The notes under the pieces: model-generated
Database searches by the model: none
The model's input: the letters and a program-made list of their open reading frames with translations, nothing else
What the model was told of the DNA's origin: nothing
Made by a program: the position numbers and the translations under genes
Origin: Pseudothermotoga hypogea DSM 11164 = NBRC 106472
GTDB lineage: Bacteria > Thermotogota > Thermotogae > Thermotogales > DSM-5069
Direction: 5' to 3'
Assembly (NCBI RefSeq): GCF_000816145.1
Contig: NZ_CP007141.1
Coordinates: 1,054,001-1,118,000, forward strand
Length of the DNA: 64,000 nucleotides
Shown: in pieces, positions 3,107 to 19,880 of the stretch
How the letters are laid out: every line of letters starts with the position of its first letter
How positions within the stretch are numbered: position 1 is the stretch's first letter

Positions 3107-3310
3107 TCCTTAGCTCCCAATTTTATTCTAAAACAACCAGACCATATGGCATACATTATCATCGATCATTCAAAGCGTTCCATGGTGCGCACATCGTTGG
3201 GGCTTGGATAGAGAATTGATCTTTTCTTAATACCCTAAAAGAGATCGAGCATTTTGCTTCACCGTGGCTTGACTTACCAGAACGTGTGGATTAGTTCCGA
3301 CACGGACGTC

Positions 3311-3340
3311 CATTTCCAGCCATTATAAGGCCTTCCAAAC
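3311..3340 (-). repeat. Degenerate terminal CRISPR repeat of array 1
   Basis: The stretch reads ATTTCCAGCCATTATAAGG followed by CCTTCCAAAC on the plus strand, recognisably the array 1 repeat with several substitutions and one deleted base. It lies one spacer length (45 bases) before the first perfect repeat, at the end farthest from the leader, where decayed repeats usually sit. It supports the leader being at the high-coordinate end. Confidence 0.7.
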
Positions 3341-3385
3341 CCGGCCCGATTCAAAGAAACAGAAGCCATTACAATCTTGACGGCA

Positions 3386-4399
3386 GTTTCCATCCCTCAT
3401 AGGAGCCTTCTAAACTTTGGTTCCTGCAATAGCAAAGAGAAGAAGCACTGGAAGTTTCCATCCCTCATAGGAGCCTTCTAAACTCTTAAATTGTTTCGTG
3501 AGCTCAAAGTGTCTTGATCCCGAGTTTCCATCCCTCATAGGAGCCTTCTAAACGGGAATTTGACAGAGTGTGTTGGTGAAAGGAGGCGAATAGCATGTTG
3601 TTTCCATCCCTCATAGGAGCCTTCTAAACATCTTGAAGATCTAAAGGCGTGAGCGGAAACGCTCAGTTTCCATCCCTCATAGGAGCCTTCTAAACACGAG
3701 AAGGCGCAGTTACTTAAGGAGATTGAAAGACTGGTTTCCATCCCTCATAGGAGCCTTCTAAACTCCTTTTTCCTTATGGCGTGTACTATGGGATAGTGAA
3801 GAAGGGTTTCCATCCCTCATAGGAGCCTTCTAAACACGAGAAGGCGCAGTTACTTAAGGAGATTGAAAGACTGGTTTCCATCCCTCATAGGAGCCTTCTA
3901 AACATTTTCACAGCGAACGCGGTTCTTTGGGTATTTCTTCAGTTTCCATCCCTCATAGGAGCCTTCTAAACTCCCGAGTCCTATTATGACGTTGTTTTGT
4001 GCCATGAGTTTCCATCCCTCATAGGAGCCTTCTAAACGCGTTTGAAATCGCCATGTTGTTCGCCAAACTCGGCATGAACTTGTTTCCATCCCTCATAGGA
4101 GCCTTCTAAACTTTTAAATGCACGGTTGAAAACATAGTTCATACTGATGTTTCCATCCCTCATAGGAGCCTTCTAAACGCGGAGGTATGATGAGAGTACG
4201 AGAGATTCAGGATTGGATGTTTCCATCCCTCATAGGAGCCTTCTAAACGGGAATTTGACAGAGTGTGTTGGTGAAAGGAGGCGAATAGCATGTTGTTTCC
4301 ATCCCTCATAGGAGCCTTCTAAACAAGAACTTGCAAGAAAAAAGAACTACGATCTAAATTGCATGTTGCGTTTCCATCCCTCATAGGAGCCTTCTAAAC
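3386..4399 (-). CRISPR. CRISPR array 1: 15 perfect repeats, 14 spacers
   Basis: Repeats of 30 bases begin at 3386, 3454, 3524, 3600, 3666, 3734, 3806, 3874, 3942, 4008, 4082, 4149, 4219, 4295 and 4370. On the plus strand each reads GTTTCCATCCCTCATAGGA then GCCTTCTAAAC. Read on the minus strand they end in GATGGAAAC, the usual 5' handle of type III crRNAs, so transcription should run right to left from a leader at 4400-4674. Spacers are 36-46 bases. Two spacers occur twice: 3554-3599 equals 4249-4294, and 3696-3733 equals 3836-3873. Short open frames across the array encode a repeated LEGSYEGWK peptide and are not genes. Confidence 0.99.
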
Positions 4400-4674
4400 C
4401 CGTGGAAGTGGCTTTATTATTAAGACGGCACTTTTTGAGTCGAGACGATGTTACATTCGACCTTTTTGGAAGTGCCCTTCTGTTGAAGCTTTTCGAAAAT
4501 GGCACTTCTACTGAGTCTCTCATTTTTTGAGGCACAAGTGGGTGGTTCATATGAACGTTACAATACCTGTTTTTAGAATAGGCTTCAGATGAAGCTTTTG
4601 GAAATGGGTAAACATCAGATTTAATTGTCAAAGACCACTGAAAAGTTTTAGTAACAGTGATCAAGAAATAGCAA
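4400..4674 (-). promoter_or_regulatory. Leader of CRISPR array 1
   Basis: These 275 bases between array 1 and the CARF gene hold no gene. They align with the leader of array 2 (19605-19880). Shared blocks are AGTGGCT beside the first repeat, GACGATGTTACATT near 4444, GTTACAAT near 4556, and a 28-base block at 4608-4635 matching 19813-19840. On the minus strand that last block starts with TTGACA, a good -35 element, followed by an A/T-rich TAAATCTG stretch, so it is the best candidate for the array promoter. The repeat-adjacent conserved sequence is where Cas1-Cas2 would be expected to anchor new spacers. Confidence 0.75.
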
Positions 4675-6102
4675 TCACCATTTAAAAAGGTCGAGCCCTG
4701 CTTTCTCGAAGCACATGTCGATGCTTGGATCCAAGCGAAGTTCTGCCCTGATCTCGAGATCTTTAAGGAGTTTTCTGGCGCATTCTTTGATGTATTCCAC
4801 CTGTTTTTCGTTCGGAAAATCGAATCCGTGTATCAACAGAGAAGAATTTCTCGATTGGAGTGCCAATGACAGTGCTTTCAACCTTTTCTGATCGAAAATC
4901 CCTTGAACACAACTGTCTTTTTTCACGATCAAAAGGATTGCCATCCCGAACAAACCGAGTTTGTCGTGCATCTCCACCTGGTCTTCCGGCTTCTGAAGTA
5001 TCTTCGACATCTCTCTTCTAATCGCAATCTTATCTTCGTCAGTTAAGGGCATGTCGGGTGTCAAATTGTACAGGCTGAGCCTTTCTTGCAGGAGTAGCTC
5101 CAGAGCACGGTAAGCGCACAGAGCTGTCAGTATGGTTTCTCCATGCATTTCATGTTTCTCGCTCTTTTTCAACAGCGTCTTCGCCAGTGCAAAAACACCG
5201 AATTTATTCCGGGTGTAGTCTTTCTCTTCAAGAAATCTCTTGATGGCTTCGAGGATTTTGCTTTGAGTTTCAAAGAATCCACGAGATTTTCCAAGCGGGT
5301 GGTTCAACCACGTGTCTGTTTGAAGTTCTTCCACGAGCTTTCTGGATTTCTCGAAAGCTGTTTCTATGTCCAGTGAATACCAGGCGTGATACATCACGCA
5401 AATGTCAGCTAAGACGTTGTATCTGTTATCTTTGGTTTTCTTTGCTGTCTCTCGGAAGTACCTCTGCGCTTCGTAAAATTCTCCCTTCGAGTAATGTTCC
5501 AGGGCGAAGAACGCATCCACATCCCCGAGCACTTCGTGGGGGGAAGGCAAGATGACAAGCTTCTCACTCCCTGCCACTGGACGTCTGAGCTCTTCGTCGT
5601 ATTCTTCGTTGTCCACGTACACCACTCTTATGTTCGGAAAGAATCTTCTGAAAAAGAATCCTCCGCTCGCCATTCCGGCGCTCATGGCCTTGGTACCGCC
5701 GGTCACGTCCAGAGCCACGGCTTTTCCAATGTTTCTTTCCACCACTTCTTTGATCCTTTTGTATATGGTCACAACATCGTTTTTTTCAATCTCAATGGGG
5801 TAAAGTTCTACTCCAACGTCTCTTCTGATCTGCTCCAGGTACTTTCTCGTCTCGGGTGTGTGGATTACGTAGACCTCACTGGATCTGGTTCCCAAGATCG
5901 CAAGTGTTGTCGCCTCTGGGCTGGTGCCAAGAGTGTGAATGGAAACATCAAACTGGAACTTTTGTGGTTCAACAACAGGCGATTTTTTCCAGGAATCCAG
6001 CAGTATAGGCCAGACCATTTGTTGGTAGAGTGTCCGCGGATCCTGTCCAGCCTTAACTTTTTCCTTGTATTCCTGCCAAAGTTTCCCAAGCCGCTCGTTC
6101 AT
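4675..6102 (-). CDS. CARF-HEPN ribonuclease (Csm6/Csx1-like, TIGR02710-type)
   Basis: A 475-residue predicted cyclic-oligoadenylate-activated RNase. The CARF domain (about residues 50-190) carries LDVTGGTKAM at 131-140, the ligand-binding signature of this family, plus IHTLGTSPEA at 55-64. The C-terminal half is helical and holds an R-X6-H HEPN motif, RNSSLLIHG, with Arg418 and His425 as the likely catalytic pair. The start codon overlaps the stop of the upstream MazF-like/extension gene as ATGA, so the two are translationally coupled; it is the last gene of the minus-strand operon containing the sigma factor and ends at the leader of array 1. A frameshifted relic of the same gene's 3' end lies near array 2. 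CARF and HEPN calls rest on motifs; ligand ring size is unknown. Confidence 0.85.
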   Translation of the reverse strand: MNERLGKLWQEYKEKVKAGQDPRTLYQQMVWPILLDSWKKSPVVEPQKFQFDVSIHTLGTSPEATTLAILGTRSSEVYVIHTPETRKYLEQIRRDVGVELYPIEIEKNDVVTIYKRIKEVVERNIGKAVALDVTGGTKAMSAGMASGGFFFRRFFPNIRVVYVDNEEYDEELRRPVAGSEKLVILPSPHEVLGDVDAFFALEHYSKGEFYEAQRYFRETAKKTKDNRYNVLADICVMYHAWYSLDIETAFEKSRKLVEELQTDTWLNHPLGKSRGFFETQSKILEAIKRFLEEKDYTRNKFGVFALAKTLLKKSEKHEMHGETILTALCAYRALELLLQERLSLYNLTPDMPLTDEDKIAIRREMSKILQKPEDQVEMHDKLGLFGMAILLIVKKDSCVQGIFDQKRLKALSLALQSRNSSLLIHGFDFPNEKQVEYIKECARKLLKDLEIRAELRLDPSIDMCFEKAGLDLFKW

Positions 6103-6896
6103 TCTCTCTCCGCCCCCACGTCAACATTCAGAATGTTCTTAAGAGCTTCCACAGCGGGAGGATTCTCGAAAGTTATGAACAGTTCCGGCGGAATTCGCCC
6201 GCTGTAAATGGTTTTTCCGACGAGCGTTAGTTTCCCGGTTTTGGAAATCAGCTCGTCCGAGAAAATGATCCTTATCCCGGATTCGGTCCTGACAATGAGA
6301 AACTTTCCGAGATCGACGGCAGAACTTTGTGCCACCGGGACGTCGGGAAAGATCAATTCCAAATCTTTTTCCTCGAACAGACGTTTCAACTCGTCCCATC
6401 TCAGTGTGACGGTTTGTGATTCACTCTGTTCGATCTGGTTTAGGAACTCCAGAAACATGTCGTAGAGAATCTCTATCCGCTTGGTTTCGTACTCGAAGAA
6501 CTCTTTTCGAACGCCGGTCCAGTTCTCTTCACGAAGCTTTTGGTGATTCCCCACGACCTTCGTTAGGTCTTCTTGTTTCAGCTTACCAATCACTTCACAC
6601 GCTCTTTGTGTGCTGGGGGTCAAATAGAAATTGATGGGCGTGACCCTGAGCAGGTTCACGAGGTGTTCCACTCTCAGCAACAATCCATCCCCCGCGAGAA
6701 ACAGTTCTGGGCTGAGGAGGATACAGTTCTTGACGACGCCCTCCTCAGTCACAACACCGTAGATCGGACCGGTGTCACCCCAGACACAAATGACATCTCC
6801 CAAACGAATGGAAGTGGTCTCAGGACCTTCTTTCAAACTCTTTATCCTCTTCTGCGCTCTCTTGTAAAACTCGAGACGTCTTTTGAGATAACCCAC
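6099..6896 (-). CDS. MazF-fold protein with C-terminal extension; candidate CalpT-like anti-sigma factor
   Basis: A 265-residue protein. After a basic N-terminus, residues about 28-125 resemble the MazF/PemK SH3-like barrel: IRLGDVICVWGDTGPIYGVV, a VVKNCILLSPELF strand region, and the helix IGKLKQEDLTKVVGNHQKL, which matches the typical MazF C-terminal helix. The remaining 140 residues are an extension ending in a beta-rich LGKFLIVRTESGIRIIF region. It starts with GTG (GGAGG 8 bases upstream), 27 bases after the sigma-factor gene, and is coupled to the CARF-HEPN gene. In the known CalpL/CalpT/CalpS type III system a MazF-like protein of similar size holds a sigma factor inactive until a SAVED-Lon protease cleaves it; such a protease is encoded at 16941-18419. 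The function is therefore a reasoned proposal, not a proven homology. Confidence 0.55.
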   Translation of the reverse strand: MGYLKRRLEFYKRAQKRIKSLKEGPETTSIRLGDVICVWGDTGPIYGVVTEEGVVKNCILLSPELFLAGDGLLLRVEHLVNLLRVTPINFYLTPSTQRACEVIGKLKQEDLTKVVGNHQKLREENWTGVRKEFFEYETKRIEILYDMFLEFLNQIEQSESQTVTLRWDELKRLFEEKDLELIFPDVPVAQSSAVDLGKFLIVRTESGIRIIFSDELISKTGKLTLVGKTIYSGRIPPELFITFENPPAVEALKNILNVDVGAERE

Positions 6897-6923: not shown

Positions 6924-7610
6924 TCACCTATTTTGACGGATCTTTTCGCAGATTTCTGACATGTAAATTTCCACGATCCTGCTGAATTCCGCTTCTGTGA
7001 TACCGTTTTCCATCACGAAATCTCTAATCCTCTTGGCGAGCCTTTCGTGTGATTTGTACCTCGCTTGGACAGTCTTCCCAGATGCGAAGATATTCGTTTT
7101 TTCATCCGAAAAGAGTTTTTTGTAGAAAAAATCGCACAGATCTTTCTCTTTACCGCTAAAAAGGTTTCTCAGCGCCTCGAAGTTTTTCTCGGCAAGAATC
7201 TGTTCTAAGGGATCTCTTCGTGCTTCTTCTTCCAATTGGATAAAGTCGAGAAAAGTCGATTCTTCCGATTCTGAATCACTGATCGAATCCAAGGAAAGGA
7301 CTTTCTTCCGCTTTTTCGACCTCGCATAATCGTAGATTTTGTTCTCCACGGACTTCACCAAATAACCAGTCAGATTATCAATGTTCCTCGTCAAGATCTC
7401 AGATCTCTTCTCCCAGAATGCACCCAAAACATCTTGGAAAATCTCATCGACGGCGGATTTCTCGTTACCGAAGATCTTGAGAACGTTCTCTCGTCCGAGG
7501 ATGTCGACGAGATTGAAGGAAACGATCTCCCTCAACATCTTTTCCAAGGTTGGCGTCACCTTTCGGTCTTCGAGAAACTTGAGTATTTCACGATCCAATT
7601 CTTTTGACAC
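6924..7610 (-). CDS. Sigma-70-family (ECF-like) factor, candidate CalpS-like
   Basis: A 228-residue protein with an ECF-type sigma layout. Region 2 is seen in NLTGYLVKSVENKIYDYARS followed by a KKRKK cluster (about residues 90-115 from this start), the pattern of the core-binding and -10-recognition helices. Region 4 follows at about 150-215, with a helix-turn-helix around SGKTVQARYKSHERLAKRI. GTG at 7610 is chosen because GGAGTGA lies just upstream; a TTG at 7637 has no site. Either way the gene overlaps the 3' end of the preceding MazF-like gene (7588 onward). It is followed after 27 bases by the MazF-fold/extension gene. It should direct RNA polymerase to unknown promoters when released from its partner. 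Confidence 0.7.
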   Translation of the reverse strand: MSKELDREILKFLEDRKVTPTLEKMLREIVSFNLVDILGRENVLKIFGNEKSAVDEIFQDVLGAFWEKRSEILTRNIDNLTGYLVKSVENKIYDYARSKKRKKVLSLDSISDSESEESTFLDFIQLEEEARRDPLEQILAEKNFEALRNLFSGKEKDLCDFFYKKLFSDEKTNIFASGKTVQARYKSHERLAKRIRDFVMENGITEAEFSRIVEIYMSEICEKIRQNR

Positions 7611-8007
7611 ACTCTTCACTCCAGTTCTGTAGATCAAAAAAGCAACTCACCACGAACTTGATCCTTCCACACCTTCTCCACTCTTCCACCAAGAAGCTCG
7701 GAAATTCGAAAACGGATTTCGAATCAATGCACATTATGTAGTTCTCGTGCTTGAGGATCCTTTTCAAGTTGCCCAGCGGACAACACTCGACAACATTGAG
7801 CTGTAAGTTCGAATGAGGTTTTGTACTTAAAAAAGCGCACAAGTAGGTAGTCTCGTTCTTCTTTTGGACCAAGCCGGGCCGGCTGTTACGAACTCCCCAC
7901 TTGGACTCACTCAAGTATCTCGTTCCCAAGAACCTTCCCGCAGTTTTCGCCGGCTGGAAAAAGATCACCAGGTTCGATACAAACCGTCTTTCATGGAGCT
8001 TTTCCAT
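7588..8007 (-). CDS. Small MazF/PemK-like protein
   Basis: A 139-residue protein, first gene of the sigma-factor operon, with ATG preceded by GGGGAGA at 7 bases. It shows the order of elements expected in a MazF/PemK barrel: a first strand NLVIFFQPA, then SRPGLVQKK (compare RPALV in MazF), YLCAFLSTKP (compare the plTs strand), a CIDSKSVFEFPSFL strand and a final CGRIKF turn. No conserved catalytic Arg/Ser-Thr pair can be assigned with confidence, so it may be a toxin, or a protein-binding barrel. Its 3' end overlaps the sigma-factor gene by about 23 bases. Together with the larger MazF-fold protein downstream it gives two such folds flanking one sigma factor. Fold assignment is by pattern only. 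Confidence 0.5.
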   Translation of the reverse strand: MEKLHERRFVSNLVIFFQPAKTAGRFLGTRYLSESKWGVRNSRPGLVQKKNETTYLCAFLSTKPHSNLQLNVVECCPLGNLKRILKHENYIMCIDSKSVFEFPSFLVEEWRRCGRIKFVVSCFFDLQNWSEECVKRIGS

Positions 8008-8664: not shown

Positions 8665-9417
8665 TCAAATCTTCCCTAAGGGACTGTCGATCAATTCTAT
8701 GCAACCGAATCCGACAGAGTTCTTAGACCCGATACCGGTGTCATAGGCAAGCTTGAGTATTTTGTATGGACCTTTCATATCGAAGGATGTCAGCCAGCCA
8801 TCTATTTTTCTGTTTTTGTAGACCATCACAACCTTCTTCGGCTGCTTTCCAACGTGTTGTATTTCGAGGTCGAACTCATGTTCAAACTCTTCTCCAAAGA
8901 TCGCTAAGTATTTTCTCTTCAGATTTTCCTTCAAGATCCTGATGAAGTCCTCGCTCTCGGGATCGTGATATATCGTGATCCTTTTTCCGCGCTCTTCAAT
9001 TGTGGAATAGACCGTCACCGGTGATTTCGTTGAAACCTGTATGAAATTCGTTCGTGGAAGATCGAAGAGAGAGATCTTGGACGGTCTAACCTTGTTCTCC
9101 CCAAGATGCAGGGTTTCAAATCTGGAGAGTTTGTCTACCAAGAGCTCGATCAGGTTATCGTCGAAGGAGGAAACTATCAAGGTGACGTTTTTATCGAATT
9201 CAATGGTCTTACGATCATGGTTCAGTTGAAAGTTACCGAGCAATCTCGAGAAGCAGTACATTTTGTACTTCCTTTTTTGGTATCTGTAACCCTCTTCATG
9301 GATGAAATACCTTAACTCATCATCCTCGATAAGGTTGAGCACAAATGCATGTAAGATATGGTTGTAATCAACTGGGAGTTCGAGCTTGTCAAATTCGAAA
9401 TCGATATAAAGCCTCAC
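8665..9417 (-). CDS. cas6: Cas6 pre-crRNA endoribonuclease
   Basis: A 250-residue Cas6, which cuts CRISPR transcripts within each repeat to leave the 8-9 base handle. It has a duplicated ferredoxin-like fold; the N-terminal VRLYIDFEFDKLELPVDYN and the C-terminal glycine-rich loop GIGSKNSVGFGC are typical. The start is GTG at 9417: GAGGAGG lies about 7 bases upstream and the codon overlaps the preceding stop as GTGA. A longer frame to 9525 exists but adds a sequence unlike Cas6. It is the only Cas6 in the window, so it presumably processes both arrays, whose repeats share the 3' handle. Confidence 0.92.
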   Translation of the reverse strand: MRLYIDFEFDKLELPVDYNHILHAFVLNLIEDDELRYFIHEEGYRYQKRKYKMYCFSRLLGNFQLNHDRKTIEFDKNVTLIVSSFDDNLIELLVDKLSRFETLHLGENKVRPSKISLFDLPRTNFIQVSTKSPVTVYSTIEERGKRITIYHDPESEDFIRILKENLKRKYLAIFGEEFEHEFDLEIQHVGKQPKKVVMVYKNRKIDGWLTSFDMKGPYKILKLAYDTGIGSKNSVGFGCIELIDSPLGKI

Positions 9418-10034
9418 TCCACTCTCCTCCTCAACTTCTTGCAGATTTCTTTCAAAATGGGCAAATCCGTTTGATGGTAGAAAAAGGAACGATAATCGTG
9501 GAATCGAAAGCCGATCAAATTCCAAAGCTCGATCATTCGATCCGAACCGAACAAGTCAACTCTGTACAGGTTCTCGGTGATTTTCGTGAACACCGGAACG
9601 AGATTGAGTGTTTCTGGTTTGCTGTTGAAAACCTCACGACAAATCCCCGAATAGCTTTGGTAACAGTCACGAACGAGCCTCTCGACATCCAAATTTCCGA
9701 AACTACTTTCCAGAACCAGATAACCGGTATTCGATGGCTTGATGTCGTCAATGTCAGCAAACACGGGTGTGGAGCCATCGACCGAAAGTTTGAGGATGCC
9801 TCTCAAAACCGATCCAATGTTTCCCGCCAGGAGCCGAAGCTTCAAGAGAGCTTCTCCAACAACGGTATAGCCGAAGGCGCTTGAGTAAACCTTTTTGGCT
9901 ATGAAGTCAGAGAAGGAAAAAATTTTCAAATTATTTCTGCAAAAGAAGTCCTCAATTGCACACACAGTATCTTCATCGATTAAAGCTGGTTCGGTGAATT
10001 TCCAGTGCACGGAAATTTCAATCAAATGCATCAC
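9414..10034 (-). CDS. Unknown CRISPR-operon protein between csm5 and cas6
   Basis: A 206-residue protein I do not recognise. It begins 5 bases after the csm5 stop and its stop overlaps the cas6 start, so it is a coupled member of the III-A operon. It is a mixed alpha/beta protein with no membrane segment. The stretch GYTVVGEALLKLRLLAGNIGSV and the preceding FSFSDFIAKKVYSSA have a vaguely RAMP-like flavour (hydrophobic strand, then glycine-containing loop), but no G-rich loop or catalytic motif can be assigned. It contains only three cysteines and no zinc motif. It could be an extra effector, a ring nuclease or an accessory subunit; nothing in the sequence decides. Confidence 0.7.
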   Translation of the reverse strand: MMHLIEISVHWKFTEPALIDEDTVCAIEDFFCRNNLKIFSFSDFIAKKVYSSAFGYTVVGEALLKLRLLAGNIGSVLRGILKLSVDGSTPVFADIDDIKPSNTGYLVLESSFGNLDVERLVRDCYQSYSGICREVFNSKPETLNLVPVFTKITENLYRVDLFGSDRMIELWNLIGFRFHDYRSFFYHQTDLPILKEICKKLRRRVE

Positions 10035-10039
10035 CCCAG

Positions 10040-11200
10040 TTAAGAAACGAACCTCACTCTAACCCATCCAAGCGGCTTTGGCACCGGTGATTCATAAGAC
10101 GGTTCTGCAATGCTGATCGACACTGGGAACAAATTATAGACCTTGTGGGTCGATTTCAAGAATTCCAGCTCATTCCTGTTAAGAAATCTGGTAAAGAAGG
10201 TTTTGCTGAAAAAACCAGTTTGAGCACCGAGCCTGAGAATAAATCCATCTCTCATCTTTTTGTTCTCTTCACGCAGTTTTTCGTAAAAGCCCAAGATCAA
10301 CTTGAACTCGTTTGAATTCAAAGCTTTCTTGATCCTCTCTATTTCCAATTGGATGATCTTTTCGGTCGCACTTTTGACGGCCTCGATGAACTTGCCTTTA
10401 TCCCCAAGCGTCTCGAGCAATTTACCTGGATCTGTGATCCAATTCTTCATCTGGGATAACCTATCCACTCTGGATTGCAAAAGCACACGAACTTTGTTGG
10501 ATTCATCTTGCTTGTCAAGCCAGAGCTCCAACATCATGGAAATCTTTGTTTTCACATTCAACAGGTTCCTCACTGTGATGAGTTTGAATTTGACGAACTT
10601 TTTGTCTATAAAGTCACTATCTGAGATTTCGAGTAGTCTGAACGGAGATTGGTTGGGCGAACCGAAGATTCCCCCTTTAATGTTGATGTTTCGCTCTTTC
10701 TCTCTTTTCATTCCCTGTTTGGATTCTTTCATGGAATCTTCCACAATCGTCTTTAATAGGTCTTCAAAACGTCGAACAAGACTCTGATCGCTTCTTATCA
10801 AAGCTGTCCTAATGGCACCCTTTATGGAACTTCCAGGGACGTAATACCTTCCTGCCGATCTAACGAACCTCTTCATTTGGAGGTTGTCCGGCTTGTTGTT
10901 TCTCCACTGGGCTGGGAAACTGTCCAGAGAGACTTCGGATAGCTTCAAATTCAGCTTCTGAAAGATTTCTTTCATCGCCCTGTCCTTCACTGAGGGGTCC
11001 AGAATATCCTGCATCTTCGCGACGAACAGTTCAACGAAATCATCTCTTCCCAGAAGTTTTTGAAAGTCCAAAATGTACACCATGTTTCCCTCGACGATCG
11101 TCTCGAACCTTTCTATTTTTTCATCAGAACCTATGAAAACGGGTGATACCGGTTCTATCTCGATCCAACTCGAGAATCCCGGGTTCACATCAATCACCAC
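10040..11200 (-). CDS. csm5: Csm5, RAMP subunit of the III-A complex
   Basis: A 386-residue Csm5, the RAMP protein that caps the 3' end of the crRNA in the Csm filament and helps crRNA trimming. The N-terminal WIEIEPVSPVFIGSDEKIE, the IKGAIRTALI glycine-loop helix after YYVPGSS, and a C-terminal LGWVRVRF are the family features. The frame extends upstream, but GTG at 11200 or 11188 is the likely start; both lie at the csm4 stop (11190-11192) with GGTGGTGA nearby. Position between csm4 and the unknown gene fits a standard csm order. Confidence 0.88.
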   Translation of the reverse strand: MVIDVNPGFSSWIEIEPVSPVFIGSDEKIERFETIVEGNMVYILDFQKLLGRDDFVELFVAKMQDILDPSVKDRAMKEIFQKLNLKLSEVSLDSFPAQWRNNKPDNLQMKRFVRSAGRYYVPGSSIKGAIRTALIRSDQSLVRRFEDLLKTIVEDSMKESKQGMKREKERNINIKGGIFGSPNQSPFRLLEISDSDFIDKKFVKFKLITVRNLLNVKTKISMMLELWLDKQDESNKVRVLLQSRVDRLSQMKNWITDPGKLLETLGDKGKFIEAVKSATEKIIQLEIERIKKALNSNEFKLILGFYEKLREENKKMRDGFILRLGAQTGFFSKTFFTRFLNRNELEFLKSTHKVYNLFPVSISIAEPSYESPVPKPLGWVRVRFVS

Positions 11201-12149
11201 CTTCGTACGCCACCAGGAAGGCTCTGGCGTATCTAAAGACCCTGTGCCCGTATTGTTGCTCGAAGCCTTCTGGCGAAACGTCCAGGATAGTCCCTTCAAT
11301 TGGCTCTTTGAACACACTGCCTTCGGCGAAAGCCAGGACTTTCTTCGCCCTCCTGTCGCTCATGTGCACGTAGCCAGTCCTGTGAACCAGATCGTAGTTC
11401 AAGACCTTTTCAGGCACCGCTTTGACCTCTGAGGTGTTCGGAACACACACAGAGATCAGCAGATATCTGTTCCCTGAGTTCGGAACGGTGGTTTGCTCCA
11501 ACTCGAAATCGAACGTGCCAAATCCGTAGGTTCTATCACCACCAAAGCCTTCCTCCGACAAGAGCTTCAATGCCGAAAGAATCTCTTTCTCGATGTTTGC
11601 ATCCGCAGACAGGTAAAACCACAGCCCCGCGTTTTCGTTGAAGTGAACCTCCGCAAAGTAGAAGAGGTTCGAACTCGAATCGTATCTGTTCACCGAAACC
11701 CTTGGACGCTCGATTATCAGGAACGGTTCTTCTTTCAAAGCCTCCCTGTCCTTGGTGAGGAATTGTCCACGAACGTTCTCCAGACTCACCTGAGCTCTCT
11801 TGAAAAGAACATCCTCGTCGACGAATCTGACCTTCTTAAGCTTCTTAAACTGAGAGCTGGAAGACAAAGAATTTTTGCTCAGTCCGAAGTCCTCACCCTT
11901 TGGTTTGGGAAAGAAGTGAACATTTCCAACGCTTGGAAAGGCGGAGGAGATCAACAACCGCGTTTTACCTTCCACCAAGGCACGAAGCAGTTCATCGGTA
12001 CAGTCCTCACCGTAGAGAAGGGCATGGGAGCAGATGAGTGCGCTGAAGATGGTGTCTGAATGAATCAGCGTATCTGACAGCTCGTAAGCCGTATCCATAA
12101 ATCCAACGTGGAGCGGTGCTCTGAATCTCAGCTTAACTCGGTACGTCAT
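11190..12149 (-). CDS. csm4: Csm4, 5'-handle-binding RAMP of the III-A complex
   Basis: A 319-residue Csm4, the Cas5-like subunit that binds the 5' handle of the crRNA and Cas10. Motifs: the N-terminal strand MTYRVKLRFRAPLHVGFMD, the SDTIFSALICSHALLYG helix, and the glycine loop EGFGGDRTYGFGTFDFE at about 210-226. ATG is preceded by GGGAGG. It follows csm3 by 15 bases and overlaps the csm5 start by about 11. Confidence 0.92.
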   Translation of the reverse strand: MTYRVKLRFRAPLHVGFMDTAYELSDTLIHSDTIFSALICSHALLYGEDCTDELLRALVEGKTRLLISSAFPSVGNVHFFPKPKGEDFGLSKNSLSSSSQFKKLKKVRFVDEDVLFKRAQVSLENVRGQFLTKDREALKEEPFLIIERPRVSVNRYDSSSNLFYFAEVHFNENAGLWFYLSADANIEKEILSALKLLSEEGFGGDRTYGFGTFDFELEQTTVPNSGNRYLLISVCVPNTSEVKAVPEKVLNYDLVHRTGYVHMSDRRAKKVLAFAEGSVFKEPIEGTILDVSPEGFEQQYGHRVFRYARAFLVAYEGGD

Positions 12150-12164
12150 CCTCCCACATCCCTT

Positions 12165-12956
12165 TTATGATTGCTTGAGCTTGTTTCTCACTTCTTTCGG
12201 ACTATCACCGTAAACCCGAACCTCTTCAACTTTCTCATCTCCAGAATAGTAGGAAGCATCGCGACGCTTTATAGTTATGTTTTTGAACTTGATCTTTCCA
12301 TAGCCCCTCGTGCCACTTCCACCAAGGTAATCGTCCTCGAGCAGTTCCATCGCCGTGAGTAAGCAATCAAGATAAGGGTTTTTCTTGTCTCCATCTTCAT
12401 TCTTGTCTCCACCTTCATCTCCTTCGAATATGTTCACGACAAACTCTGCCTTGAACCTTGCACCTGCCGGAACACGTTCCTGAGGTCTTGGCAGAGCTGC
12501 CGATGTGATTCTGTTTATGGAATTTTCATACTTGATCTCAGTCCACCTCGTTTCGAGGAGGTTTTCCAAATCCTTTAAACTGTCTTTGTCCAGCTTTGCG
12601 TCTCTCACTATCAGCCTGGTTCTGTTGAAAATGGGAGGACTCTGAGTGTTTTCCTCTTTTTTCTCAATTGCTCTTCCAAACAGGCCACAAATCTTGCAAT
12701 CTTTCTTCTGGCAACTGTGAACTTTGCCACTACTATCGACCAATCCTTCGTGGAACTCCATGAGCATGCGCATTTTTCCTTTCAAACTGCTGCCGGGAAT
12801 GTAAGGATTGCCAAATGGATCTTTCACCACTGGATTGTCCAGACCTCCGACTTCGACTTCCTCTTTGCTCGTACCGATGTGCAGACCCGTTACGAGTTCG
12901 ATGTCCGCCGTCAGGATGTACTTCCCAACCAGCTTGATTTTGTTCTCATTACTCAT
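12165..12956 (-). CDS. csm3: Csm3, backbone RAMP and target-RNA nuclease
   Basis: A 263-residue Csm3, several copies of which form the filament and cut target RNA every six bases. The catalytic aspartate should be Asp40 in GGLDNPVVKDPFGNPYIPG, followed by the SSLKGKMR helix. A cysteine cluster (CQKKDCKICGLFG) is the zinc-like loop common in Csm3, and the glycine loop is GGSGTRGYGKIKF. Its start overlaps the csm2 stop as ATGA. With an intact aspartate the complex should be able to cut RNA. Confidence 0.95.
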   Translation of the reverse strand: MSNENKIKLVGKYILTADIELVTGLHIGTSKEEVEVGGLDNPVVKDPFGNPYIPGSSLKGKMRMLMEFHEGLVDSSGKVHSCQKKDCKICGLFGRAIEKKEENTQSPPIFNRTRLIVRDAKLDKDSLKDLENLLETRWTEIKYENSINRITSAALPRPQERVPAGARFKAEFVVNIFEGDEGGDKNEDGDKKNPYLDCLLTAMELLEDDYLGGSGTRGYGKIKFKNITIKRRDASYYSGDEKVEEVRVYGDSPKEVRNKLKQS

Positions 12957-13438
12957 CGTTCACTTCCCTCCCGTTCGTTTTCTTTCTTTACAGCTTGATA
13001 GTACCTGTGATAAGCGACGAGCGCTTCGAAGAAATCGACAAAGATGTCATAGGCGTATTCGAGCTTGGAATGGATCTTGACCTTTTCTGCTATCTGCCTC
13101 ATACCTTCAGCGAACTCCTTCATGATCAGCTTCTTTTTTTTATCTTCTTCCCTTCCGGCATCGTACAGTAGAATTGCGATGAACCTGTTCAAATCTCTCT
13201 TCAGATCAACTTCTTGCCCAAGCTGCTTCATGGTCTTGATCTTTTTGGCAAAGTTGTAGAATTTTCTTATTTTGGTCGAGTTCAGCTTCAGATCTTTTGC
13301 TATCTTTTCGGCCAGTTCATGCAATTGGTCGTAGTTCACTTCATTTTGTTCGATGAGTCTGACGACCGCTTTGAAGTTTTCTTGTAAATTGTTGTTTCCT
13401 CTGGTTTGCTGTTGTCTGGCATCCTTATTGTCACCCAT
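12953..13438 (-). CDS. csm2: Csm2, small subunit of the III-A complex
   Basis: A 161-residue helical Csm2, the inner-filament small subunit that stacks along the target RNA. Diagnostic segments are LNSTKIRKFYNFAKKI (the conserved K-IR-FY helix) and the C-terminal FVDFFEALVAYHRYY helix. The N-terminal 25 residues are rich in Q and N and probably disordered. Two in-frame ATGs exist; 13438 is chosen since GGAGGTG lies just upstream, while 13453 overlaps the cas10 stop as TAATG. Confidence 0.9.
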   Translation of the reverse strand: MGDNKDARQQQTRGNNNLQENFKAVVRLIEQNEVNYDQLHELAEKIAKDLKLNSTKIRKFYNFAKKIKTMKQLGQEVDLKRDLNRFIAILLYDAGREEDKKKKLIMKEFAEGMRQIAEKVKIHSKLEYAYDIFVDFFEALVAYHRYYQAVKKENEREGSER

Positions 13439-13452
13439 CAGAACACCTCCCA

Positions 13453-15897
13453 TTAATTCGAAATGCCCTTAATTTCCACTTTTCTCGTCTCGTTGTGCAC
13501 CCATTCCAACAACAGATCGAGTTTTTCGTAGAGTCTGTTCCTACCGACCAGGATGTCATTGAAAAAACTTTGGATGTCTTTCTTTGCTTCGTTGTTCGTC
13601 TGTCTTTCAATGAGCCTTGCGACATAGTAGTAAAGTTGCCAGATCTTCGTTGGTTCTTTCTTCTTCTGTCTTTCGACGAAAACTTTCAGCGTGTGAATGA
13701 GATTTTTCGTCACATCGTGATCCTCGACGATCTTTTCCAGTAGCTTTTTCTTTTCGAGAAAATCCGCAAATTCTTCCCATCCGACGCATCCACTGAACAA
13801 GGCGAGTGCAGACTTTTCCAAACCGTTTCTCATGTAAGACTTTGCGAGTTTCTCGAGCATTTCACCCGCTTCGACACCAAGCTTGTAGACTGGATATTTT
13901 CTGCTCGGTGCGATCGCCACGGCCATGGATATGGATAGTTCTTCATTCCTTGAATAATCCGCAAAATGTTTTGCAATGCCTTGTGAAAGCATAGGAAGTT
14001 CGTTCCATGGTCCAAGTATCATGAAGTCGTCTCCACCCGAGTACACCACATTGCAGTTTTTGAATTCTTTGGCGACGAACTTTTCCAGCTCAACGCCGAA
14101 GAACAGCTCTATCTCAGAAGAGAGAGTTGAGACCATGGAAATCGAACTCTTCTGGTTCTCTTCAACGTTCGTGATCGATGCGAACACCTTGCCGAGGTTG
14201 TCCAGATCTCCCCTGAGTATTCCCCATCTCTTGACTCCCTTCGCCCTTTCCGCCATCGTCTCCAGGTCAGTCGTCTTCTCCATACCCTCGACGAGCTCTT
14301 TGGAGATGTAGTTGGCGGTTTTGACAAAGTACATCGATTTTTTCGGATCGAATTCGTCCTTGTTCAATGCGTACGAAAACTCGTTTGGGTTGTCTGTGAA
14401 TTCGATCATGTAGCCAAACATTTTGAAAACTTCGTTGGCACTCTTCGGATTCTCGATCTCCGATGTCTTCAAAAGCTTCATGTACCTTTTCTTAACAAGC
14501 TCGGCTCCGATGTGTGCGAAAGACTCGCAAAATTCGCACTCGAGTTCCTGATCCGGGCCCTTTTGTTTCATCCTCCTATTGCAGTACGGACAGACTGGAC
14601 CTGAGAGATCGATCGGTCTGGAAAACAGCGAATCCAATATTCTCGAAAACTTTCTGTTCTTTTCTGCCTCGAGCTTACGCGAAAGCTCTTCATGAACCTT
14701 AAAGTTCAAGATGTCGTACAGTGTGAGTTCTTTCCCGACCAGCAACACGCTCAGGTCTATGCTGAACGCCTTGAAAAGCTTTTCGTCCAGGATCTTTTGA
14801 TATTTGCTCAGTCTGTCGAATGCTCTGGCGGGAACAAGGATGTAGAAATGCCCGCCTCCACAGAACAGTATGTTCGCGATGTACAGGCCCTCTTTTTCAA
14901 CAATGTACCTCGCTATGACTTCTGCAAGGTAAGCTATGAAAAAGGATCTACCACGCAGTTTCTTCAATCCATGGGCATTTGGAACGTTGTAGATGAAGTT
15001 TTGAATGCCGGACACATCGCCCTTTATGATCCCCAGAACGGGTTCGTCGTTCGGTAAAGGCTGATCGCTCCTCAGGCTACTGTAGCTTCTTATGAGACTT
15101 TCGATCGAGCTGAATATCCTCTCGGCGAAAACGAAGCGATCGTTAGATTTCTCAAACAGCTTTTCTTCAAATTGTTTGAACAGCGAAATGGCTATGGCTG
15201 CGGTCGAAATCGCATGTGAAAACAATGAGACGTTCGGTTCGCTGTAGTAGTAGGCCGATGGAATGTTCGAGGTGTACTCTTTCAAAAGGTGGTAGATCCT
15301 CTCGAAGAACAGATACCTTTTCTCCTTGTCTTCGTAAGAGCGCAGAAGATCGTCTTGTGAGATCAATTCTTCGAACTCTTTCCAGAGTCTCTCGTAATCT
15401 TCTTCGTGGTCGTATTCTTCAGCTTGATCCTTATCCATCAAACCTTCGAATCTGGAAAAACGAGAGATGGGCTTGTAATATGGTGGTTTCCTCTCTCCTT
15501 TCAACGACACGGAAGATATTATGGAACGCATGAGCTTGATTTTCCGTTCGGAAGAAGTCTGCTGTTCCTCTCGCTCGGAAGCCGATATGCGATCTGAGAT
15601 CGTCAAAAGCTTGGTGAGCACGTCGTACTCAGTTTTCAGATTCGAAAGCTGTTCATGGTGATGCGATATCAAGATTGGAGCTTCTTCTTTGAAAGGAAGT
15701 TTTGAGTTCTTATAGACATACGCGCCCACGTACTCGTGAGCAATGCCTCTTTGTGGATCACTTTTGATCTCGTAACTGAATTCTTTTCTGATTCGCTTTT
15801 TGAGGTCTTCATCGAGTTTTCCTCTCTGTCGGAACTTTCCTATGTCATGAAAGAGTGAAGCCAAATACAACACATCTTTCAAAGTTTCCAATTCCAC
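13453..15897 (-). CDS. cas10: Cas10/Csm1, type III-A large subunit with HD and GGDD cyclase
   Basis: An 814-residue Cas10. An N-terminal HD nuclease motif (SLFHDIGKFRQRG) should degrade ssDNA, a zinc ribbon (CPYCNRR then CEFCESF) follows, and the second Palm domain carries VYSGGDDFM at about residues 620-624, the active site making cyclic oligoadenylates from ATP. Both active sites look intact, so the complex should signal to the CARF and SAVED effectors in this window. GTG at 15897 is preferred because GGAGGTGG is 5 bases upstream; an earlier in-frame start at 15942 would overlap cas1. Gap to cas1 is 13 bases. Confidence 0.96.
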   Translation of the reverse strand: MELETLKDVLYLASLFHDIGKFRQRGKLDEDLKKRIRKEFSYEIKSDPQRGIAHEYVGAYVYKNSKLPFKEEAPILISHHHEQLSNLKTEYDVLTKLLTISDRISASEREEQQTSSERKIKLMRSIISSVSLKGERKPPYYKPISRFSRFEGLMDKDQAEEYDHEEDYERLWKEFEELISQDDLLRSYEDKEKRYLFFERIYHLLKEYTSNIPSAYYYSEPNVSLFSHAISTAAIAISLFKQFEEKLFEKSNDRFVFAERIFSSIESLIRSYSSLRSDQPLPNDEPVLGIIKGDVSGIQNFIYNVPNAHGLKKLRGRSFFIAYLAEVIARYIVEKEGLYIANILFCGGGHFYILVPARAFDRLSKYQKILDEKLFKAFSIDLSVLLVGKELTLYDILNFKVHEELSRKLEAEKNRKFSRILDSLFSRPIDLSGPVCPYCNRRMKQKGPDQELECEFCESFAHIGAELVKKRYMKLLKTSEIENPKSANEVFKMFGYMIEFTDNPNEFSYALNKDEFDPKKSMYFVKTANYISKELVEGMEKTTDLETMAERAKGVKRWGILRGDLDNLGKVFASITNVEENQKSSISMVSTLSSEIELFFGVELEKFVAKEFKNCNVVYSGGDDFMILGPWNELPMLSQGIAKHFADYSRNEELSISMAVAIAPSRKYPVYKLGVEAGEMLEKLAKSYMRNGLEKSALALFSGCVGWEEFADFLEKKKLLEKIVEDHDVTKNLIHTLKVFVERQKKKEPTKIWQLYYYVARLIERQTNNEAKKDIQSFFNDILVGRNRLYEKLDLLLEWVHNETRKVEIKGISN

Positions 15898-15910
15898 AGT
15901 TCCACCTCCG

Positions 15911-16900
15911 TCACAAGCGAAACGCCGAGTAAGTTCCTTCACCTTTGAGATGCCGGATGAGTTTGTAGCACTCGTAACGTATCAAAGTGCGATACGACAA
16001 ATTCTGCCCGTGTTCATTTTTTCTGGTTCTTTCGAGCCTTTCCTCGATCTCTTCGAGTAAAATCTTCTTACCATCGTTGTTCAGATAAACTCCGCCTTCC
16101 ACCTCTCTGAAGTGTTCTTTTTTGATCATTCCTTTGTTCACCAAAGTCAGGATCGCTTTGTCAACGATGATCGGCTTGAAAATCTCTGCTATGTCAAATT
16201 GCAAAGAGTGCTTCCTCTTGTTCGGCTCGTGTAGAAAACTTATCGAAGGCTCGAGGGATGTTTTGAAAATCTCAGCGAGCACGACGTTGTACAGCACAGA
16301 ATATCCAAAGCTTAGCATCGCGTTGATCTCGTCCTTTGGTGGTCTCACAACTCTCTCTTCGAACTTGAAGTCCTTTCGCGAGAGTATCTCTCCAAGCGCT
16401 TTGTAGTAGCATTTTTTGATGTTACCCTCGATCGCCATTAGGCTCGCAATAGTGTTTTGCCTGTGATAGCTGTCTTTGAGTTTTTGGATGTAGTTGATGC
16501 TTTCATCGAGGGAGCTGAAATTCTCCAGATAGTCTTCGAGGACTCTGACCAAATTCTCAGCCGTGGCAAGAAGAATTTCTTTGGCAATGAATATGCGCCT
16601 CTCCAGGTCCTCAAAATGCTTAAACTGTAAGAGCAAAACCTCTCCGGTTTTGTTTTCTTCGACGGGATAGAAACAACCTATGTAGTCTCCGTAGTAGCTG
16701 TAAAAGAACACCGGTGTCTGAGCTTTCGAGAATAGCTCTAAGGTTTTCTTGTTGAGTTCGACTTCGGAGAAAACCATCAGAGATGAGACGTTCTTTAGAG
16801 GAATGTAGACCGGTTTCTCATCCTTGTCTTTCGGTTCAATGAACAATGTGGCATTCTTTTTCCTGAGATAGCCGTTCTTGAAAACGTAAACTGTTTCCAT
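15911..16900 (-). CDS. cas1: Cas1 integrase
   Basis: A 329-residue Cas1. The beta-rich N-domain (METVYVFKNGYLRKK) precedes a helical catalytic domain with MAIEGNIKKCYY (metal-binding Glu), SFLHEPNKRKHSLQFDIAEI (His and Asp). No reverse transcriptase or other fusion is present. ATG at 16900 is used because GGGGG lies 9 bases upstream; an in-frame TTG at 16909 is too close to that site. It lies 40 bases after the SAVED-Lon gene and 13 bases before cas10, and is the only cas1 for two arrays, two cas2 genes and two effector complexes. No cas4 is seen. Confidence 0.95.
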   Translation of the reverse strand: METVYVFKNGYLRKKNATLFIEPKDKDEKPVYIPLKNVSSLMVFSEVELNKKTLELFSKAQTPVFFYSYYGDYIGCFYPVEENKTGEVLLLQFKHFEDLERRIFIAKEILLATAENLVRVLEDYLENFSSLDESINYIQKLKDSYHRQNTIASLMAIEGNIKKCYYKALGEILSRKDFKFEERVVRPPKDEINAMLSFGYSVLYNVVLAEIFKTSLEPSISFLHEPNKRKHSLQFDIAEIFKPIIVDKAILTLVNKGMIKKEHFREVEGGVYLNNDGKKILLEEIEERLERTRKNEHGQNLSYRTLIRYECYKLIRHLKGEGTYSAFRL

Positions 16901-16940
16901 GTATCTCAACCCCCACGACTTTGTCCGGCTTTCAACTATT

Positions 16941-18419
16941 TCAACGAACGAGACCCCCTTGATTCGACAAAACCGTTTGAGATAACTGTTCTATTCGAAA
17001 AATCGGAACATATCTCGATGAGGCCTGATCGTATTGGTAAACAAAACCGGACGCGTAGTCACCGAATGCGACCCCAAAACCGAAGGCGATCGGTACAGGG
17101 CAGCTCAAAAAGAAAGACGCGCCACGATAGGCGCGTCTTCTTTTGACGATCTGCGTGACCGAGAAGAGTTCGCAAACATACTCGGTCCAATCACCGATCT
17201 TCAACATGCCAGGTTGTTTCGAACGTACGTACGCAATGAACACGTCTCTGTTCTTCAAAAACTCCCTCACCTGTGGCAGTGGATCGTGCGAGGCTAAATG
17301 TATCACGAACGCAGCTTCTTCACCATCACCAAGCAATTCGTACTCCAAAAGCTCAAGTTCCTCTTCTCTTTTCAAAGCCTTGATCTTCCTCAGCTTCTCT
17401 GGGCCGGTGAGATCCAACACCAAGTGATACCCACCTTGGTAATGGTACACAGCGATCCTTCTCTTCGCACCCACCGCAATGCCGAGCGCCATCGCAAAAG
17501 ATGCTGGCCCGTTGATCGCCAAGTGTGGAACTCCACCCGACTGAAACACCACTTGCAGTGTCTCGAAAGCTCTTCTCAACTCCGAAGCGTACTCATTTTC
17601 CTGTAACATGTGCCTTCGATGGAACATCTCGACTCTGTAGATCTTTCTGTAAAGCTCCAAACTCTTGCTGGGGAAAGACCTTTCCACGGTCTCTCTCAAC
17701 TCTTCCCAACCACGATCCTCTACACGTTCGCTGTGCTTGTAACACAGATACACTGGAACATGGTGTTCTCGAGTGTCGAAAAAATCAACCAAATCTCTGA
17801 AGTTTCGCACATCCAAGCCTGTCAACAGTTCTAACCCTTGCTCAGAACACACCCTCAGCTTTCTTTCCAAGCTTTCCGCTAAAGCGACGTTCCCATGCTC
17901 GTCCAAGCAACCCGAAAAAGCCACATGATTCGGTAAATTCTTCGACAACGCCCCTACTGCGACAGCGAGCATGAAGGAATCTCCACAGAAATCTCCATCG
18001 AACAGCACGGACAGTTCGAAACCGACGAGCCTTTCAATGATTCTGAGCTTCGGTGTGTGCTCCGTTAAGTTGCAGAACTCTAAGTTCGAGTTGAAGACCA
18101 AAGCTCGTCGCACATCGCTCGATTCTCCACCCACCACTGGAAACTTCACTTCTTTATGGTCAGACAAAACCACGCGCATGGACTGCTCGAAGCTCAGCGA
18201 ATACTCCTTGGAGAGTAGGAGGGCCGCATTGGCGTGATCTCTATTTTCCAAGAAAAGTTTGAACACCTCGTAGAAGATCAACTTCCTGTTGGGCTGGTCC
18301 TTGGGAAGGAGCTCGAAGTCCTTCAAAAGCTTTTCTCTTGACAAAACCCTCCTTCTTACGAATCGAAGGTACTCGTACGGATCAGTCGCGAGAAAAAAAG
18401 AATGATGGTAGTTATCCAT
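16941..18419 (-). CDS. calpL: SAVED-Lon protease (CalpL-like cyclic-nucleotide-activated effector)
   Basis: A 492-residue protein heading the III-A operon. Residues about 85-240 match the Lon proteolytic domain: CGDSFMLAVAVGALS holds the nucleophile (Ser148), VAFSGCLDEHGNVALAESL precedes Lys187 in ERKLRV, giving the Ser-Lys dyad with 39 residues between them, close to Lon. The C-terminal part (about 290-490) fits a SAVED sensor: HLAINGPASFAMALGIAVGA, RRIAVYHYQGGYHLVLDL. This is the layout of CalpL, which on binding cyclic tetra-adenylate cleaves a MazF-like anti-sigma factor. ATG at 18419 follows GGGGGGA; an ATG at 18434 is less well placed. A 10-bp terminator-like hairpin lies inside the gene at 17114-17139. 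Substrate here is inferred to be one of the MazF-like proteins at 6099-8007. Confidence 0.85.
   Translation of the reverse strand: MDNYHHSFFLATDPYEYLRFVRRRVLSREKLLKDFELLPKDQPNRKLIFYEVFKLFLENRDHANAALLLSKEYSLSFEQSMRVVLSDHKEVKFPVVGGESSDVRRALVFNSNLEFCNLTEHTPKLRIIERLVGFELSVLFDGDFCGDSFMLAVAVGALSKNLPNHVAFSGCLDEHGNVALAESLERKLRVCSEQGLELLTGLDVRNFRDLVDFFDTREHHVPVYLCYKHSERVEDRGWEELRETVERSFPSKSLELYRKIYRVEMFHRRHMLQENEYASELRRAFETLQVVFQSGGVPHLAINGPASFAMALGIAVGAKRRIAVYHYQGGYHLVLDLTGPEKLRKIKALKREEELELLEYELLGDGEEAAFVIHLASHDPLPQVREFLKNRDVFIAYVRSKQPGMLKIGDWTEYVCELFSVTQIVKRRRAYRGASFFLSCPVPIAFGFGVAFGDYASGFVYQYDQASSRYVPIFRIEQLSQTVLSNQGGLVR
17114..17139 (-). terminator. Terminator-like hairpin inside the SAVED-Lon gene
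   Basis: On the coding strand AAGACGCGCC, loop TATCGT, GGCGCGTCTT forms a perfect 10-bp stem followed by TCTTTTTG, the shape of an intrinsic terminator. On the other strand the stem is followed by CTTTTG. It lies about 1.3 kb into the gene, before its last 66 codons. It could reduce transcription into cas1-cas10 or be coincidental codon choice around a KRRRAYRG peptide. Confidence 0.45.
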
Positions 18420-18722
18420 CACGTCCCCCCACATCCCAGTACTTCAATAGAATTATAACACTTCTTTGCAAATTCTCGCATCGAAGTCTCATCACAGAAA
18501 ACAGAACGTTCAAAGCCTCTGTCCGCGAGACGACGATCTTCGATCCGACCGGCGGGTCTCGATCCCTCAGGGAAGGATCCGATTTGGACAACTTCCGCCC
18601 CTATCATCAGTTTTCATTCTCTCGAGAAAAACTTCATTCAGGTCGAAGAGATTCGCGGTTTGAACTCGGAGGCACCTTCCACGTCCCATCCATTTCAGGA
18701 AAGATCTCCATTCGGACCGATG
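18420..18722 (-). promoter_or_regulatory. Upstream region of the III-A operon with extended -10 promoter
   Basis: No intact gene is seen here. On the minus strand TGTTATAAT at 18452-18460 is an extended -10 element (TG, one base, then TATAAT at 18452-18457), 33 bases before the SAVED-Lon start; no convincing -35 is present, as allowed for extended -10 promoters. The rest (18470-18720) has short open frames in several phases and may be decayed sequence, but I cannot assign it to a family. Confidence 0.6.
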
Positions 18723-18752
18723 CAGTTGGGTCCCCATAGGACTTCTCTGAAC
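18723..18752 (-). repeat. Degenerate terminal repeat of array 2
   Basis: The last 18 bases (CATAGGACTTCTCTGAAC) match the array 2 repeat with two changes, while the first 12 are eroded. It lies 38 bases before the first perfect repeat, one spacer length away, at the end farthest from the leader, the same arrangement as in array 1. Confidence 0.6.
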
Positions 18753-18790
18753 TTTTTCCGAATCTTCGGAAGGAAACTTTCTGTGTGCTC

Positions 18791-19604
18791 GTTTCCATCC
18801 CTCATAGGACCTCTCTAAACCGGCAACGGCAATGGCTCATACAACAGACCCGCAGAAAATAAGTTTCCATCCCTCATAGGACCTCTCTAAACCGTAACAT
18901 TGTATGCGTATTAGACAAAGGAGGCACAGAAGGTGTTTCCATCCCTCATAGGACCTCTCTAAACGCCGCTTTTTCGGCTGGCACTTGCTCGACGTTGAAA
19001 CTGAACGTTTCCATCCCTCATAGGACCTCTCTAAACCGTAACATTGTATGCGTATTAGACAAAGGAGGCACAGAAGGTGTTTCCATCCCTCATAGGACCT
19101 CTCTAAACGCCGCTTTTTCGGCTGGCACTTGCTCGACGTTGAAACTGAACGTTTCCATCCCTCATAGGACCTCTCTAAACTGTGGCTGGAAGAGAATCGA
19201 AGTGGGATAAGATAGACGAGCTTTGTTTCCATCCCTCATAGGACCTCTCTAAACATGGAGTATGGACGGGTGAGCGAAACGCTCACCCGTTTGTTTCCAT
19301 CCCTCATAGGACCTCTCTAAACTGGTACCATTGGCGTATTTCATTGACCCGATAGAGTTTCCATCCCTCATAGGACCTCTCTAAACAGGAATATTTCAGC
19401 TGGCTGATAGCTATGTTTTTCAACACCGAGATGTTTCCATCCCTCATAGGACCTCTCTAAACCTTCGATTATTTCAAAAGACTATGTGTTCGACTCTGCA
19501 AATCTGGTTTCCATCCCTCATAGGACCTCTCTAAACTGCCAGTTGTGCGTGTCGAAAACGCCGTTCAAACACTCGTTTCCATCCCTCATAGGACCTCTCT
19601 AAAC
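18791..19604 (-). CRISPR. CRISPR array 2: 12 perfect repeats, 11 spacers
   Basis: Repeats of 30 bases start at 18791, 18863, 18935, 19007, 19079, 19151, 19225, 19293, 19357, 19433, 19507 and 19575. The plus strand reads GTTTCCATCCCTCATAGGA then CCTCTCTAAAC; it differs from array 1 at three positions in the part away from the crRNA handle. Spacers are 34-46 bases. Two adjacent spacers are duplicated as a block: 18893-18934 plus 18965-19006 recur at 19037-19078 plus 19109-19150. The spacer at 19255-19292 contains a perfect 11-bp hairpin. The leader is on the right (19605-19880), so transcription runs leftward. Confidence 0.99.
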
Positions 19605-19880
19605 CCCGTAGAAGTGGCTCTATTACTGACAAAGCAGTTTGTTGCAAAGGACGATGTTACATTGGACGTTTCGAGAAGGACCCTTGTAATGAGAACTTTC
19701 GAAAAGGCATGTTTTGGGGATCCCCCCTCTGTGAGACAGGAAAAGGATGAGTTCACACGAAAGTTACAATCACATATTCTAAAGCAGGCTCTAAAAGAAC
19801 TGTTCAGAATTTGGTAAATCACAGATTTAGTTGTCAAAGATCAAGTTAAAATAAAGGTAATAACGATCATTAAGACGTCA
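19605..19880 (-). promoter_or_regulatory. Leader of CRISPR array 2
   Basis: It is homologous along its length to the leader of array 1 but diverged. Conserved pieces are AGTGGCTCTATTA beside the repeat, GACGATGTTACATT near 19660, GTTACAATCA near 19764, and the 28-base block at 19813-19840 that on the minus strand starts TTTGACAACTAAATCTG and probably holds the promoter. Open frames across it are not genes. Confidence 0.75.

Follow-up and report, generated by a model that had tools for sequence, protein, structure and literature searches.

Guides of two type III CRISPR arrays of Pseudothermotoga hypogea and of related Thermotogales are probably mostly antisense to messenger RNA, without evident preference for translation starts

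The window analysed here, a stretch of 64,000 nucleotides of Pseudothermotoga hypogea DSM 11164 = NBRC 106472 (contig NZ_CP007141.1, positions 1,054,001 to 1,118,000), contains two CRISPR arrays and the gene sets of two type III systems. Unless contig positions are named, coordinates refer to the window.

3311-3340, minus strand: decayed repeat on the trailer side of array 1 (66% copy of the array's repeat family; listed as 3309-3346)
3386-4399, minus strand: CRISPR array 1, with 14 spacers (12 unique) between 15 repeats of 30 nt; minus-strand crRNA predicted
4400-4645, minus strand: putative leader of array 1, resembling that of array 2 (the local alignment scores 153, and none of 100 shuffles exceeds 32)
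8665-15942, minus strand: type III-A genes (Cas6, a further protein with a match to a Cas6 model, Csm5, Csm4, Csm3, Csm2 and Cas10/Csm1; PADLOC)
15911-16909, minus strand: Cas1, 332 aa, with Cas1-model matches over almost the full length
18791-19604, minus strand: CRISPR array 2, 12 repeats and 11 spacers, 9 of them unique
19605-19851, minus strand: putative leader of array 2, from the flank alignment with array 1
20884-27701, minus strand: type III-B genes (Cmr6, Cmr5, Cmr4, Cmr3, Cas10/Cmr2 and Cmr1)

Arrays 1 and 2 are repeat-spacer arrays adjoining csm or cmr genes with Cas10, and the III-A and III-B gene sets, Cas1 and ancillary proteins are located between or beside them. The repeat family shared by the two arrays amounts to 27 copies in the whole genome (at most 3 mismatches; 2,165,416 bases in a single contig). 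In array 1, the spacers 3696-3733 and 3836-3873 are identical, which contributes to the 12 unique spacers among 14; two spacers of this array (3524-4325) recur at a distance, and the duplicated spacers of array 2 (18863-19150) form a 144-nt tandem duplication. No reverse transcriptase fused to or adjoining Cas1 is named among the families listed for 19 proteins of the locus, and the Cas1, with its 332 aa covered by Cas1 models, is not an RT-Cas1 such as marks RNA-acquiring type III systems. Around cas1, no separate cas2-sized frame on the minus strand stood out among the open reading frames of 60 aa or more listed for 15700-19000. The locus also encodes a SAVED-Lon protein (CalpL-like; 16941-18434, minus), a CRISPR-T match (CalpT-like; 6099-6896, minus) and a sigma-factor-like protein (6924-7637, minus) whose Sigma70_r2 match is weak and below the cut-off; the three presumably resemble the known CalpL/CalpT/CalpS signalling trio. 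Two CARF-HEPN proteins of the Csx1 type are found at 4675-6102 and 27707-29107. Elsewhere, the genome carries its own type I-B locus, where an array of 77 exact repeats and one repeat with two mismatches adjoins the genes of Cas3, Cas5b, Cas7b, Cas8b, Cas1b, Cas4 and Cas6. This array was used as control with the 76 spacers comprised between exact repeats, of which 75 are unique (77 and 76, respectively, when the decayed repeat is included).

Concerning the orientation of the two type III arrays, the repeat read as its reverse complement terminates in GGATGGAAAC, which we take to be the usual 5'-tag end of the crRNA. The right flanks of the two arrays (250 bp) align almost end to end with the score of 153 given above, and the left flanks display no likeness (score 17). 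Together with the decayed repeat at the left, these flanks point to a leader on the right, and the crRNA of both arrays very probably derives from the minus strand. Transcription from the leader side with a 5' tag supplied by the repeat end, as in type III arrays, is predicted from the flank likeness and the left decayed repeat. The minus-strand crRNA assumed in a first-pass annotation of this DNA is thus borne out by the repeat end, the decayed repeat and the similar right flanks.

The same annotation had proposed that several spacers of array 1 look like gene starts or coding sequence on the plus strand, with guides antisense to phage messengers and some of them aimed at translation starts. 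The spacers concerned, and some others with particular features, are the following.

3554-3599, plus strand: spacer carrying a ribosome site and an ATG, both in mRNA sense, first copy; AAAGGAGGCGAATAGCATG at 3579-3597 (AGGAGG, 8 nt, ATG)
4249-4294, plus strand: second, identical copy of 3554-3599; motif at 4274-4292
4179-4218, plus strand: spacer with GGAGG close to ATGATG; GGAGGTATGATGAGAGT at 4181-4197; plus frame open to the spacer end (MMRVREIQDW)
3696-3733, plus strand: spacer with the plus frame EKAQLLKEIERL; plus favoured by the codon model (LLR 6.8); second copy at 3836-3873
3630-3665, no strand assigned: spacer with the hairpin TGAGCGGAAACGCTCA; scored as minus by the codon model (LLR -7.3)
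18893-18934, plus strand: array 2 spacer ending in the ribosome-site-like AAAGGAGGCACAGAAGGT, no start codon inside; second copy at 19037-19078
18965-19006, minus strand (coding strand): array 2 spacer resembling part of nrdD; second copy at 19109-19150
19255-19292, plus strand: array 2 spacer whose terminator-like hairpin precedes a TTT on plus

In the spacers 3554-3599 and 4179-4218, a ribosome site and a start codon (SD+start) are indeed present at the places announced. The first resembles a tight gene junction, where a plus frame ends with TGA and is followed by AAGGAGG and then by ATG; as 4249-4294 is identical to it, the two copies represent one event and not two. In the second, SD and start are unusually close: 1 nt separates the SD from the first ATG and 4 nt from the next one. 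SD+start occurs on the plus strand in 2 of the 21 unique spacers against a mean of 0.52 in dinucleotide shuffles, and since 153 of 2000 shuffles reach two, the window by itself does not establish the signal. The other argument of the annotation, that further spacers have one or more open frames on the plus strand, proved uninformative: such frames exist for 20 of the 21 unique spacers on plus, for 20 of 21 on minus and for 85% of shuffled sequences. The hairpins of the spacers 3630-3665 and 19255-19292 (TGAGCGAAACGCTCA) are almost identical, and the latter matches hairpins in three relatives (L060-L062).

The search for protospacers of arrays 1 and 2 with the algorithm blastn in phage and plasmid records yielded either nothing or matches whose E was 3 or higher, and none was detected in phages for the 110 spacers of array L081 from a relative. 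Six of the 21 unique spacers, used as exact or back-translated patterns, gave no match in viral contigs, nor did one of those six in genome contigs. When both arrays were compared by BLAST with their own genome and with 60 relatives, the matches listed included the repeats as well as the nrdD and hairpin matches. The spacer 18965-19006 matches three relatives with 80-84% identity over 37-41 nt (E from 9e-5 to 2e-3). Its match in L053 is situated inside an anaerobic ribonucleotide reductase (Pfam NRDD, E=2e-112), where the protein reads FNIEQVPAEKA against FNVEQVPAEKA for the minus strand of the spacer. If the true target reads alike, this guide would be in message sense and could not bind the message, and the spacer would constitute a counter-example to antisense guides. 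Self-targeting by this spacer was rejected, the best fit to the nrdD region of the host being 22 of 42 bases. The spacer, unlike the host gene, came perhaps from an nrdD-bearing mobile element or from foreign chromosomal DNA.

The strand preference of the spacers was evaluated with a codon model of period three, for which 158 genes of the host served as training set, at orders 2, 3 and 4. On held-out sense fragments of the host, 78-85% were called sense (73-76% by the composition-free version), and as the models were trained on host genes, virus genes with another codon usage score less well. At order 2, plus is favoured as the coding strand in 16 of the 21 spacers of the window (one-sided p=0.013); the count is 15 at order 3 (p=0.039) and 13 at order 4 (p=0.19). 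The corresponding values for the I-B control are 26, 30 and 29 of 75, and at order 2 the two sets differ with p=0.001 (Fisher). After removal of strand composition, 13 of the 21 spacers remain plus-sense (p=0.38). The strand bias deduced from these 21 spacers alone is suggestive. The I-B array (L078, contig positions 1134700-1140100) itself leans to crRNA in mRNA sense in the cross-array count (26 of 76 spacers target-sense, two-sided p=0.008, for one of many arrays), and its three spacers with GGAGG are all target-sense.

Arrays from related genomes were sorted and oriented by the form of their repeats, giving 17 type III arrays (including the two of the window), 12 type I arrays (including the own I-B) and two ambiguous ones. 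By tblastn, csm, cmr or Cas10 sequences were recovered in 9 of the 14 type III stretches of the relatives, corresponding to 10 of 15 arrays (L081, L082, L084, L085, L089, L090, L094, L097 and L098), and Cas3 in two of the four type I stretches examined (L091 and L095); seven further type I arrays were typed by repeat form alone. The same search recovered neither csm, cmr or Cas10 nor Cas3 in L083, L086, L087, L088, L099, L096 and L100. The ambiguous L092 and L093 were set apart, at first as three arrays with 75 unique spacers and later, in the strand and motif counts, as two arrays with 46 spacers; two overlapping detections of one array in L093 were left out, as were the type III spacers on two further contigs of relative G026, and L106 has no array row in the motif count. 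Near-identical spacers were merged for the SD+start counts and kept unmerged for the codon-model and per-array counts.

Over these arrays, 484 of 591 type III spacers favour the strand complementary to the crRNA as coding, with p=3e-58 if all were independent, which they are not fully because 8 of them repeat a spacer of another array (583 distinct). More than half of the spacers are target-sense in all 17 type III arrays (8 of 12 in array 1 and 8 of 9 in array 2). For type I, the value is 283 of 539 (p=0.26), single arrays ranging from 34% to 75%, and for the ambiguous arrays 31 of 46 by the codon model. When strand composition is removed, the type III arrays outside the window still give 385 of 570 (p=3.7e-17), against 260 of 539 for type I and 24 of 46 for the ambiguous arrays. 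Motifs show the same asymmetry: SD+start is target-sense in 20 type III spacers and crRNA-sense in one (p=2e-5), and the type I values are 8 and 2 (p=0.11); for GGAGG alone, the counts are 56 against 10 in type III and 26 against 20 in type I. A strand bias of terminators was also considered for type III spacers and rejected, the terminator-like hairpins being target-sense in 4 cases and crRNA-sense in 6. These data support the view that type III guides of this order are mostly antisense to messenger RNA. The antisense part of the first-pass proposal therefore holds as a tendency, strong over the order and weak in the window alone, and not as a universal rule, as the spacer 18965-19006 indicates.

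The other part, that guides are aimed at translation starts, did not find confirmation. It would suppose guides enriched at starts beyond their share in sampling, either by acquisition near starts or by selection for a block of translation, and we consider this quite improbable. The rate of SD+start on either strand is nominally higher in type III (21 of 572 spacers, 3.67%) than in type I (10 of 531, 1.88%), but the difference is not significant (Fisher p=0.10); corrected for length, the ratio is 1.65 (p=0.21), with a rough 95% interval of 0.8-3.5 computed by hand from the counts, so that an excess up to about threefold is compatible with them. A wider motif on either strand gives 39 and 22 spacers (p=0.064, and 0.25 after length correction). 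On the target strand only, the excess of type III is more marked (20 of 572 against 8 of 531 for SD+start, p=0.054; 37 against 15 for the wider motif, p=0.004), but such a difference is expected from the strand bias by itself, and it fits a start preference too. Among random 40-mers of the host, SD+start is present in 1.28% in sense and 0.55% in antisense (one listed gene per 1132 bases), below the type III rate. Since the genes of phages and other viruses generally have a smaller length than those of the host, this baseline is low. Moreover, the own I-B array includes two spacers with a good SD+ATG, GGAGGGATAGGCATG and GGAGGGGGAACATG. The distribution among type III arrays is uneven: in L084, from relative G042, 8 of 74 spacers carry SD+start, two of them being near-identical, whereas the remaining type III arrays have 13 of 517 (p=0.002, for one of 7 large arrays tested); L081, with the same repeat as L084, has none in 109. 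That some Thermotogales type III arrays such as L084 are enriched in guides over start regions, by start-proximal acquisition or by selection where ribosomes load, appears very unlikely. For the type III-A system of Streptococcus thermophilus, review PMC9048733 reports, after Zhang et al. 2021, an enrichment of spacers at roughly 10-50 bp downstream from start codons; the idea of a start preference is accordingly not new. Among the titles listed by a literature search, none dealt with start-directed type III spacers, and the statement of this review was the one on starts that was encountered. The spacers with start signals reported here are compatible with the share expected from about even sampling of transcripts.

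The bias itself could have been produced by composition or acquisition rather than by selection, for example if displaced single strands, or RNA, were captured. The target strands are richer in purines for type III spacers (0.577) than for those of type I (0.516), and type III-A acquisition from single-stranded structures is described in PMC9048733. However, the bias is weaker yet present without strand composition (the 385 of 570 spacers above), it appears in the SD+start motifs (20:1), the Cas1 is covered by Cas1 models with no reverse transcriptase among the families listed, and Thermus spacers acquired without selection came from both strands, according to PMC7515739. We regard such an origin as unlikely for the bias as a whole, although acquisition could account for part of it. 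If instead the signals of array 1 were chance occurrences among 21 short random fragments without real strand preference, the frequency of two SD+start spacers in shuffles, the composition-free 13 of 21 and the clear counter-example 18965-19006 would be easily understood; but the arrays of the window score like the other type III arrays and unlike the own I-B (26 of 76), which makes this explanation improbable too.

The reading that we favour, with a probability of about 0.85 for the whole, is that arrays 1 and 2 are ordinary type III arrays with mostly antisense guides and no evident start preference. Transcribed from the right-hand leader leftwards, they would supply crRNA to the III-A and III-B effector complexes encoded alongside. 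Antisense is the only orientation in which Csm and Cmr complexes can bind their target RNA, as established for type III. Applied by analogy to arrays 1 and 2, this would mean that most spacers were retained for having a crRNA antisense to some transcript of the invader, presumably of a phage or a plasmid, and that the bias was made by selection for function and not by acquisition.

This locus resembles the known type III-A (Csm) and III-B (Cmr) systems with neighbouring arrays in its effector sets, Cas6, Cas1 and CARF-HEPN ancillaries, in its variable spacer length (34-46 nt) and in a crRNA that is probably mostly antisense to coding sequence, and we found no feature distinguishing it from them. 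The type III strand bias is already known and our data agree with it: Vink et al. 2021 (PMC8482600) report that type III spacers target the coding strand or mRNA, and Artamonova et al. (PMC7515739) attribute the type III strand bias to selection. The former bias was obtained from mapped protospacers, whereas ours comes from spacers alone, in one order. PMC8482600 also gives a preference of I-B for the coding strand, and the own I-B array leans to the opposite (26 of 76, p=0.008). With the S. thermophilus type III-A system, as presented in PMC9048733, the likeness is in spacers near starts on one strand; the enrichment there lies downstream of the starts, whereas no significant excess over the ribosome site and start is observed here.

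For the window itself, these results mean ordinary immunity. For the order, they confirm that type III guides are directed against messenger RNA in hosts whose viruses hardly appear in the searched collections. The strand was obtained without protospacers, the codon periodicity and the ribosome-site motifs within the spacers being sufficient, and this approach based on spacers only could serve to orient arrays, or to separate type III from type I, in sets that lack known targets.
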